Shown: piece by piece, positions 18,323 to 19,370 of the stretch
How the letters are laid out: each line of letters starts with the position of its first letter
How positions within the stretch are numbered: the stretch's first letter is position 1
Assembly (NCBI RefSeq): GCF_902459735.1
Contig: NZ_CABPRV010000006.1
Coordinates: 186,001 to 250,000 of the forward strand
From: Pandoraea capi
GTDB lineage: Bacteria > Pseudomonadota > Gammaproteobacteria > Burkholderiales > Burkholderiaceae
Reading direction: 5' to 3'
Length of the DNA: 64,000 nucleotides
The notes under the pieces: model-generated
What the model saw: the letters and a program-made list of their open reading frames with translations, nothing else
Database searches by the model: none
What the model was told of the DNA's origin: nothing
Made by a program: the position numbers and the translations under genes

Positions 18323-18351
18323 TTGACGCTCCAAATTAGCCTCAGTTACCA
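18323..18351 (+). promoter_or_regulatory. Predicted sigma-70 promoter of magnesium locus
   Basis: TTGACG (18323-18328), a 17-base spacer and TTACCA (18346-18351) give a plausible promoter. Transcription would start near 18358, about 25 bases before the first leader ORF. No PhoP-type direct repeat was recognised. Confidence 0.35.
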
Positions 18352-18383
18352 TCCGCCCTGTCTTCAATTTAAGGGGTTAGTCC

Positions 18384-18425
18384 GTGAATTCCGATGCCAG
18401 TAGTCCTCGATCTTTGATCGATTGA
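18384..18425 (+). CDS. Predicted leader peptide 1 (13 aa) of the magnesium locus
   Basis: A GTG-initiated ORF encoding MNSDASSPRSLID, seven bases after an AAGGGG ribosome-binding site (18371-18376). It lies just after a predicted promoter, and its stop codon is six bases before a stable hairpin (18431-18465). The AATTTAAGG...AGTCCTCGA arrangement recurs at the second leader ORF, where AGTCCTCGA again reads Ser-Pro-Arg in frame. Acidic residues ahead of proline recall MgtL of Salmonella, whose translation senses magnesium. Translation and function are inferred. Confidence 0.5.
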   Translation: MNSDASSPRSLID

Positions 18426-18430
18426 TTGCC

Positions 18431-18465
18431 TGAGGATCCACAGCTCTCCCTGTGCCGCGTCCTCA
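18431..18465 (+). promoter_or_regulatory. Hairpin in leader 1
   Basis: Outer helix TGAGGA/TCCTCA (18431-18436 with 18460-18465) and inner helix CACAG/CTGTG (18439-18443 with 18450-18454), immediately after leader ORF 1. Two further small hairpins follow (ACGCTC/GAGCGT at 18495-18511; GCGC-TTCG-GCGC at 18533-18544). Together they make a structured 5' leader before the ACT-domain gene. No known Mg2+ riboswitch (M-box) consensus was recognised. Confidence 0.45.
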
Positions 18466-18695
18466 AGCAGGATGCGGTGTCTCGCGCCAACCGAACGCTC
18501 TTTCCGAGCGTGCCCGCCCAGGGCGCTTCGGCGCAATTCCCGCAAAAGTTTCCACTGTCGTGCCCGTGATGGGTGTCGTCGTCTTGCGTCTGCGCTTTGG
18601 CGTTTGCGCGTCATGACGATGCGGCTTCACGCGCCGGCCGTCCATGCCGCGTGTTCACATGCGCCATGGGCACTTCGCAGTCATGCGAGGAAATC

Positions 18696-19043
18696 ATGCG
18701 AGCTTTTCAAACGTTTCAGGCTTTCCAGAGCCAACCGACGCGCACTACGCCGGTGTCGCATCTGACCATCGTCTGCCTGGCCGAGGCCCTTGGCGCCTTG
18801 CGCAAGCAGATGTTCATCGACCTGACCGCCCTCGGCCTGCGCGCCACGCACGTGAGTATCACGCGCTGGAGCGACCGCGACGAGGCGTCCGCCACCGTGA
18901 CGCTCGATTGCCCGCAGGCATCGCGCGCATCGCTCACGTCGCTCGTCATGCGACTGTCCGGCGAACGGAGCGTGCGCCGCGTGTTCTGGTCCGACGACGC
19001 TTCGCGCCGCGCGAGCGTCGGGGCCTCGCCCGTCGCCGCCTGA
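18696..19043 (+). CDS. Stand-alone MgtC C-terminal-like (ACT-fold) protein
   Basis: A 115-residue soluble protein whose core (about residues 19-97: HLTIVCLAEALGALRKQMF ... ATHVSITRW ... SGERSVRRVFW) looks like the cytosolic ACT-like domain at the C-terminus of MgtC, with no membrane N-domain. MgtC belongs to Mg2+-starvation operons and its C-domain is thought to be regulatory. Here the gene precedes an MgtA-type Mg2+ ATPase, matching that context. The start is set by GAGGA before ATG 18696. Longer upstream reading in frame is unlikely. The assignment rests on my reading of the pattern; a generic ACT protein is the alternative. Confidence 0.65.
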   Translation: MRAFQTFQAFQSQPTRTTPVSHLTIVCLAEALGALRKQMFIDLTALGLRATHVSITRWSDRDEASATVTLDCPQASRASLTSLVMRLSGERSVRRVFWSDDASRRASVGASPVAA

Positions 19044-19132
19044 GTGCGGTTTTCCCGATCCACCGACGATTCGCCGCCTCGCGCTTGCCCGCGATCCGGT
19101 GTTATCGATGATCAAAATTTAAGGAGTCCAAA

Positions 19133-19303
19133 ATGGAAGACGGAAGTCCTCGAAGGTCGCCCGTCGGGGTCGTGCACGCGATGCATGACGTCCCGGCGGG
19201 CGACATAACGCCACATCCCAGTTTTTTCGCTATCACCGACCGCGCGCCGCGCGGCGCGGCTGGGTGCGTTCGCGCTGTTTTCCGGAGAGATGACATCCGG
19301 TAG
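19133..19303 (+). CDS. Predicted leader ORF 2 (56 aa) before mgtA
   Basis: ATG 19133 follows an excellent ribosome-binding site (AAGGAG, 19121-19126). The peptide starts MEDGSPRRSPVGVV, again acidic then Pro/Arg, resembling the start of Salmonella MgtL ([12 protein letters not shown]). It shares AATTTAAGG and an in-frame AGTCCTCGA (Ser-Pro-Arg) with leader ORF 1. A strong hairpin (19156-19204) lies inside it, followed by a six-T run at 19222-19227. It ends 67 bases before mgtA. A regulatory leader peptide is the best reading, though it is long for one; a functional small protein is the alternative. Confidence 0.5.
   Translation: MEDGSPRRSPVGVVHAMHDVPAGDITPHPSFFAITDRAPRGAAGCVRAVFRRDDIR
19156..19204 (+). 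promoter_or_regulatory. Long hairpin inside leader ORF 2
   Basis: GTCGCCCG (19156-19163) pairs with CGGGCGAC (19197-19204). The stem continues for about seven more pairs including wobbles. A T6 run occurs 17 bases later. The 3' arm can alternatively form a short GGCG/CGCC hairpin nearer the T-run, so an attenuation switch is conceivable. This is inferred from base pairing only. Confidence 0.4.
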
Positions 19304-19370
19304 CGCCTGACGAGACCGGCCGGCCGCCATGCCTTGTGCATGTGAGCGTAAGCCGCGCCAGGAAATCGTC

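Follow-up and report, generated by a model that had tools for sequence, protein, structure and literature searches.

In Salmonella, the mgtCBRU operon carries two leader open reading frames (ORFs), mgtM and mgtP, before mgtC and another, mgtQ, between mgtC and mgtB, as set out in the available portions of two reports (PMC8092293, PMC3641672), the second of which describes the operon as having tandem attenuators. In the portions of these and a further report at hand, mgtM is a 12-codon ORF starting with UUG (PMC8092293, PMC6908480), mgtP senses tRNA-Pro (PMC3641672), and Asp2 and Glu5 of mgtQ destabilise the ribosome, thereby freeing the ribosome-binding site of mgtB (PMC8092293). Here we describe a magnesium locus in a 64,000-nucleotide stretch of Pandoraea capi (hereafter the window; contig NZ_CABPRV010000006.1, positions 186,001 to 250,000; coordinates below are window positions), in which leader 1, an MgtC-domain gene, leader 2 and an mgtB-type gene follow one another, a variant of the published Salmonella arrangement. 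The initial annotation had taken the duplicated leader control for a new arrangement, which the Salmonella order mgtM/mgtP - mgtC - mgtQ - mgtB, already in print in the sections seen of those two reports, contradicts. What is new here is leader 1 as a conserved RNA and peptide element at mgtB in Pandoraea and Burkholderia, which also lies before other genes.

The whole locus lies on the forward strand. A sigma70-like promoter of the operon, TTGACG-18-TACCAT (18323..18352; 9/12 matches, with shuffles giving 0.2 per region), is mostly kept across a 27-genome alignment. About 30 nucleotides (nt) downstream, and 5' of the MgtC-domain gene and mgtB, starts leader 1, a GTG-initiated ORF of 13 amino acids (aa) (18384..18425, stop at 18423-18425; VNSDASSPRSLID) with the Shine-Dalgarno sequence AAGGGG at 18371-18376. 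The following gene (18696..19043, 115 aa) had been recognised as an MgtC tail, and indeed its sole MgtC match is to the C-terminal domain PF21770 (MgtC_SapB_C), at 27.0 bits for a cut-off of 27, so that it is not a full-length mgtC; tblastn homologues occur in Pandoraea and Chromobacterium-group loci among our loci L040-L119. Leader 2 starts with ATG, encodes 56 aa (MEDGSPRRSPVG...; 19133..19303, the stop ending at 19303) and is preceded by AAGGAG at 19121-19126. The Mg2+-translocating P-type ATPase gene behind it (19371..22133; NF011702 and TIGR01524) was initially called mgtA, but its product is MgtB-type, with 63% identity to Serratia MgtB and 61% to MgtB of the E. coli mgtC-mgtB-mgtR-mgtU operon against 49% to E. 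coli MgtA; an mgtA-type paralogue, 67% identical to E. coli MgtA, lies elsewhere in the genome. It is this MgtB identity that makes the gene order match that of Salmonella. The protein is also 90-96% identical to proteins of eight named Pandoraea records, in agreement with Pandoraea as the source genus. An ORF scan of the Serratia and E. coli operons found before mgtC, among other small ORFs, LDSHPYLNIKAS from a UUG start (longer by one codon if begun at an AUG) and LDSCSCNKTNKAS, and between mgtC and mgtB the GTG-started VIDIPGQLK and the AUG-started MDDDPGRKMIPAWLTG; the Serratia intergenic ORF MDDDPGRKM.. can be compared with the acidic start of leader 2.

The likeness to Salmonella mgtCBRU thus comprises one or more leader ORFs before an mgtC-type gene, another before mgtB, an MgtB-type transporter, non-AUG starts (UUG in mgtM, GTG in leader 1), early acidic codons in leader 2 as in mgtQ, and predicted alternative stem-loops. 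On the other hand, Pandoraea MgtC is reduced to its C-terminal domain; leader 2 has 51-59 codons across Pandoraea versus eight for mgtQ, and contains a candidate intrinsic terminator, whereas mgtQ acts on the mgtB ribosome-binding site; the peptide of leader 1 is kept from genus to genus, in contrast to that of mgtM, which the available text reports as not conserved; and leader 1 is found before other genes too. Unlike mgtM-type leaders with their ATP-responsive adenine run, the leader 1 ORF has no A-run (longest A stretch 2). The mgtL leader of mgtA in E. coli and Salmonella (PMC11282234, available in part; annotated in our locus L147) shares with the window leaders the acidic residues just after the start, a later Arg and a downstream transporter of the same superfamily, but precedes another transporter subfamily and has no tandem arrangement, and the destabilising EPDP-like motif that MgtL-type leaders combine with a Rho-dependent terminator is absent from the window leaders. 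As far as the accessible part of the report goes, the P. aeruginosa operon PA4826-PA4825(mgtA)-PA4824 is likewise Mg2+-responsive, expression of PA4824-PA4826 varying with Mg2+ in co-culture (PMC11218974); unlike the window, it has a different small gene between leader and transporter, and that part of the report describes no native leader. At a locus of P. aeruginosa PA7, an MDSIPSSRRP leader sits close behind a promoter-like sequence. By eye, a family of small proteins sharing a WR(V/I)(C/S)P-like motif was seen between leader and mgtB in four Pseudomonas loci (L099, L076, L086 and L110) and one of Rahnella (L092), and is perhaps PA4826 in P. aeruginosa. Among the literature matches listed, in which subscription journals are thinly covered, none reported these leaders from Pandoraea, Burkholderia or Pseudomonas.

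Conservation within the genus bears out the two leader ORFs as originally delimited (GTG 18384, 13 aa; ATG 19133, 56 aa). The transporter was matched at E 1e-200 or better in 28/32 Pandoraea genomes, 27 of which have a close orthologue, and at all 27 orthologous loci both leaders are intact, with start codon, Shine-Dalgarno sequence and N-terminal frame kept. Leader 1 reads V-N-S/T-D-A-S-S/C-S/P-R-S/P-L-I-D-stop, the variable motif codon being Ser in 16 loci and Pro in 11, and leader 2 reads M-E/D-D-G/D/E-S-S/P-R-x-x-P-V/A-G before becoming variable, with Ser in 24 and Pro in 3. The acidic N-terminus claimed for both peptides is general, as M[ED]D[GDE] in leader 2 and a consensus D4 in leader 1 (27/27 each). 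The motif Arg is encoded by CGA in every copy of both leaders, and each motif also holds an AGT Ser codon; by comparison, AGT accounts for 8.4% of all Ser codons in the window and CGA for 9.6% of those for Arg.

Two shared sequence strings had been pointed out upstream of and within the ORFs. The first, AATTTAAGG, does precede both, with copies at 18366 and 19116 (shuffle mean 0.01; 0/100 shuffles reach two); it corresponds to an A/T-rich Shine-Dalgarno context, of which many of the 27 loci retain only AAGGGG- or AAGGAG-like cores. The nonamer AGTCCTCGA is also present twice, at 18402 and 19145, but alone it is weak, because the shuffle mean is 0.38 and 4/100 shuffles also give two copies. Joined as AATTTAAGG-N(6-30)-AGTCCTCGA, the two strings are found at exactly two places in the 5.85 Mb genome, both in this locus, and the reversed control pattern at none. 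As a conserved motif the nonamer was rejected, Ser-Pro-Arg being found in only 11/27 leaders 1 and 3/27 leaders 2. Since Ser-Pro-Arg is the minority state, the nonamer is a local resemblance on top of a common S-S-R motif, and its reading as the meaningful unit is not supported.

Upstream of the same transporter in other genera, leaders were sought by a start codon, an acidic residue, S-S/P-R near the ORF start and a Shine-Dalgarno sequence. Such leaders were found in 35/35 Pandoraea, 28/28 Burkholderia and 7/8 Paraburkholderia-like rows, where dinucleotide shuffles predict 0.75, 0.40 and 0.11 and the reverse-complement control gave 2, 0 and 0, respectively; two handles can stand for a single genome (as with L063 and L011), which makes the rows more numerous than the genomes, and L097 (58 nt upstream) was left out of the scans. 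By eye, the eighth Paraburkholderia-like locus has SSQ. The SSR motif was seen spelled as AGT AGT CGA, AGT AGC CGA, TCT AGT CGC and AGT AGT AGG, the last two in Pseudomonas, and as TCA AGC CGC at a single locus of another genus (chance expectation 0.17). A loose filter, applied without statistics, brought up other acidic leader types near mgtB, namely MTEEPKPRPSG in Aeromonas, MSEEPEPRSCRP and MTDDSYPLPP in Chromobacterium, MNDDSYPP in Neisseriaceae and MDDYPSRPA in Phyllobacterium. In the Chromobacterium loci L059 and L062, an EEPEPR leader resembling E. coli MgtL lies at about -800 and a DDSYP leader at about -180 before mgtB, in addition to leader 1, which perhaps makes an operon with three leaders; in L062 the EEPEPR leader sits between two MgtC-domain-like genes. 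Wider sampling for the transporter, order- and class-wide, gave 3/150 and 2/369 matches, own genome included.

Leader 1 is part of a larger element (18356..18495) that comprises RNA and leader peptide and was described by two covariance models, R1, built from 20 Pandoraea sequences including the window copy, and R2, which matches the window copy at E 6e-31. The genome of the window holds a single match. Across the family, R1 matches in 71/299 genomes and 3/25 genera, made up of 27 Pandoraea mgtB loci, three Pandoraea genomes without mgtB, 39 in Burkholderia and two of group g108. The element lies 396-435 nt upstream of mgtB in 39/57 Burkholderia loci; the remaining 18 (handles G446 or higher) are probably outside the genomes sampled by R1, and R2 matched every one of 18 Burkholderia loci to which it was applied, five of which belong to that remainder. 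On the strength of these matches Burkholderia also has both leaders, and no MgtC-domain gene was found in the named Burkholderia loci. Loci that took no part in the building of R2 match it as well, three from Chromobacterium at 29.9-38.5 bits and two from the Janthinobacterium group at 29.1-29.6 bits; their leader 1 peptides read VDNDGSSRS.., VDNDGCSQS.. or VDNDGCNRS...

Several RNA structures are predicted in and around the two ORFs. Over the final leader 1 codons, a hairpin TCGATC-TTT-GATCGA (18407..18421) shows compensatory changes across genera (UA/CG and GC/AU), with both sides changed at two pairs, and a second hairpin at the 3' end of the element, GCCGCGTCCT..AGGATGCGGT (18454..18478), has only invariant or one-side changes. 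In the leader 2 region, the consensus fold of alignment A1 has 56 pairs, seven with both-side changes, six of these in hairpin A (19159..19201), which begins 6 nt past the Arg codon of S[S/P]R. Single pairs of hairpin A are broken in up to 7/27 sequences, but the covariation supports a hairpin in leader 2; inspection by eye shows perfect inverted repeats at this position in the leaders of Burkholderia and of type-2 Pseudomonas. Further downstream within the ORF, hairpin T2 (19234..19266; segment -15.6 to -19.9 kcal/mol over 27 sequences) uses the 5' arm of a GC-rich candidate intrinsic terminator hairpin followed by a T-run (19254..19281; -7.2 to -13.4 kcal/mol), the two sharing GCGCGG. The T2 segment is the more stable in 27/27 sequences, the segments being of unequal length, and the T2 fold changes form in a few; from these folding models, T2 and the GC-rich hairpin may form an antiterminator/terminator pair. 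A helix of 6 bp between TGACGA (19308..19313) and TCGTCA (19366-19371) can form across the start codon of mgtB; it is nearly invariant and present in 27/27 sequences, two of them with G-U. In Burkholderia, the mgtB Shine-Dalgarno sequence can pair with an upstream complement in 22/28 loci and a competing hairpin lies near the leader stop codon in 19/28, which is suggestive only. The Paraburkholderia hairpins 2:3 and 3:4 were set aside as evidence of an alternative helix: they have a single three-way change in common, probably one event, in 2/6 sequences, a result that roughly 7% of shuffles equal.

Taken together, the conservation of both ORFs, the covarying hairpin A behind SSR, the cross-genus synonymous signal in leader 1 given below and the MgtB identity lead us to favour, with fair confidence, tandem leader-peptide attenuators in this Burkholderiales mgtC-mgtB operon, one leader per gene, whose early acidic codons would sense ribosome stability at low Mg2+. 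Leader 1 (promoter-proximal, GTG, V-N-S/T-D-A-S-S/C-S..) would occupy the position of mgtM, and leader 2 (M-E/D-D-x-S-S/P-R..) the intergenic position of mgtQ. At low Mg2+ or with weakened ribosomes, the acidic codons and SSR would make the translating ribosome pause or drop off, and RNA freed of the ribosome would refold in a way that allows the next gene to be transcribed and/or translated. In the OFF state of Pandoraea leader 2, a ribosome past SSR would cover the 5' arm of T2 and the terminator would form; in the ON state, drop-off at MEDGSSR would let T2 form and take GCGCGG from the terminator. Mg2+ as the signal, ribosome drop-off and the switching between T2 and terminator are all part of the proposal, which has its precedent in the acidic codons, ribosome destabilisation and alternative stem-loops of E. 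coli and Salmonella, as far as the sources extend (PMC8092293, PMC3641672); direct support for Mg2+ concerns relatives, in the available parts of the reports on MgtL and MgtQ of enterobacteria and on PA4824-PA4826 of P. aeruginosa in co-culture (PMC11282234, PMC8092293, PMC11218974).

A number of results weigh against this reading. With the Shine-Dalgarno requirement, the leader scan matches only 5/33 Pseudomonas loci and 0/27 loci of the remaining groups, 10 Enterobacterales included (reverse-complement control 1). Without the requirement, 28/33 Pseudomonas loci match against 2.97 expected, and so does the reverse complement of the Pandoraea region in 30/35, so that several rows from a single genus cannot be counted as independent evidence. 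Paraburkholderia mgtB loci score just 10.8-16.8 bits with R2, which has no match at E up to 1 in L060, L069, L127 and L130 or in the enterobacterial mgtC-mgtB loci of Serratia (L146) and E. coli (L148); the kinship between leader 1 and mgtM is therefore argued from position and start codon. T2 and the terminator are nearly invariant and hence cannot be supported by covariation, a generic intrinsic-terminator scan of the region reports none (its rules for loop and stem are probably not satisfied by the candidate), and the T-run is weak in several loci, as in the CGACTT tail of L025. For leader 1, an alternative helix was tried and rejected, being above chance in only 4/21 elements, all Chromobacterium or Janthinobacterium; it is at chance in Pandoraea and Burkholderia, where no switching structure was found.

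A further adverse result, the lack of a within-genus synonymous excess in the true frame in the six leader sets tested (both Pandoraea ORFs among them), also speaks for the strongest rival, in which structured RNAs, such as a riboswitch-like sensor or Rho or small-RNA sites, exert the control and the ORFs are bystanders or matter only through the act of translation, the peptide sequence having no role. This rival would also account for the covarying hairpins of both leader regions, for the strong conservation of the leader 1 nucleotides among Pandoraea (a mean of 94% identity per column over 20 distinct sequences and 126 columns) and for the C-terminal reading frame of leader 2, which drifts between Pandoraea species though the nucleotides stay conserved. 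The synonymous-bias check proposed for both ORFs thus fails within Pandoraea, but for leader 1 it succeeds across genera, which counts against control by RNA alone. Over codons 2-7 of 19 diverse copies, a range picked once the alignment had been seen, six synonymous and two nonsynonymous single-base codon pairs were counted, against 3/7 and 0/6 in the other frames, and 9/5000 column shuffles were equally high; over codons 2-9, the ratio was 7/3 against 5/9 and 3/9. In Burkholderia leader 2, the DDSSR block gave 5/2 against 2/5 and 0/4, small numbers, and the C-terminal block was less clear (24/26 against 4/35 and 16/22). Frame 0 was free of stops in all six leader sets. These counts support the coding nature of leader 1 across genera, and no Rfam family lay in a relevant place in window 14000-25000 at E up to 5 (two irrelevant matches only). 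We regard control by RNA alone as unlikely, if still a serious alternative.

A second rival holds that the leaders sense charged Ser (AGY) or Arg (CGA) tRNA, as mgtP and mgtL sense proline, instead of Mg2+ through ribosome stability. The rare CGA and AGT codons fixed in the motifs of both Pandoraea leaders, the AGG used for Arg in several Pseudomonas leaders and the tRNA-Pro sensing of Salmonella mgtP in the source cited above are in its favour, but Burkholderia has SCSW or SCSR as its leader 1 motif, and acidic leaders of EPEP or DDSYP type stand near mgtB instead in Chromobacterium, Aeromonas and others, making acidity the more general feature; we consider such codon attenuation improbable. 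A known riboswitch was rejected, no Rfam family having matched at a relevant place in the part of the window given above.

The mgtB operon is one context of leader 1; the element also occurs where mgtB does not follow. In the three Pandoraea genomes without mgtB (L149, L150 and L151), it precedes a PmrA/QseB-like response regulator and a histidine kinase (domains tested in L151), with an MgtC-domain gene in between in L150 (PF21770, 34.5 bits) and L151 (by sequence). A second copy is carried by three Burkholderia genomes (L152, L153 and L154), where the gene of a Pit phosphate transporter (tested for PHO4 in L152) follows some 2 kb downstream; in L154 a 2OG-Fe(II) oxygenase-like gene lies between the two. 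These second copies include leader 2 as well (MDDDSSRL..), followed in L152 by a short ORF, MTRRNTSGHP.., that resembles the start of MgtB, and the pair looks like a copied cassette; because the two leaders recur together before other genes, treating them as a pair, as the initial annotation did, was reasonable. At one g108 locus an ABC permease gene lies downstream of the element, and in L158 (genus g93) the leader VGSATSDSSRSRIGIAA stands before an MgtC-domain-like ORF and RND-type pump-like ORFs (both assigned by eye). From its position, the element may control the downstream genes at these sites. We put forward tentatively, as a possibility held with less confidence than the attenuation proposal, that leader 1 is the first of an undescribed class of leader-peptide RNAs in Burkholderiales and relatives, a cassette of about 150 nt with a non-AUG peptide [VL]-[ND]-x-D-[AG]-S-[SC]-[SR].. 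and two hairpins, which, alone or with the acidic SSR leader 2, would be copied between operons (mgtB, MgtC-domain gene plus two-component system, Pit, ABC permease, MgtC-domain-like ORF plus putative RND pump), the ribosome serving as a shared sensor of Mg2+, phosphate and ATP. Separately, in L037, from a Pandoraea genome (G028) with no mgtB-type copy at the E 1e-200 cut-off, a leader 1-like GTG ORF, VDSCSGSSRSASADAITAS, was seen 496 nt before the mgtA-type gene and VFRFEGISSCNKP at -221, and in L038 LGRIDSGCLS; with a filter of 600 nt, a Shine-Dalgarno sequence and an acidic start, no leader was found at the mgtA-type paralogue in L002 or L039.

Behind mgtB in the window lies a gene (22222..22968, forward strand) with a weak match to an outer-membrane transporter family; a homologue with 59-61% identity follows mgtB in each of the eight Burkholderia loci with a match, and the gene is probably in the same operon as mgtB. 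Divergent from this operon, the minus strand at 13834-18059 holds an ECF sigma factor gene, whose identity was tested, and TonB-dependent-receptor-like and FecR-like ORFs, assigned by eye.

In the portions of the literature available, ribosome-based Mg2+ sensing by acidic leader peptides has so far been described in E. coli and Salmonella. If the proposal is true, such control would reach well past the enterobacteria, with leaders that are tandem in Pandoraea and Burkholderia and that, in Pseudomonas, Paraburkholderia and Chromobacterium, stand singly or belong to other types, and these loci would offer comparative material in which one peptide motif is written in different codons and placed before different downstream genes. 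If leader 1 does move between operons as a cassette, reaching those for phosphate and two-component systems, one cis element would link Mg2+, phosphate and the state of the ribosome.

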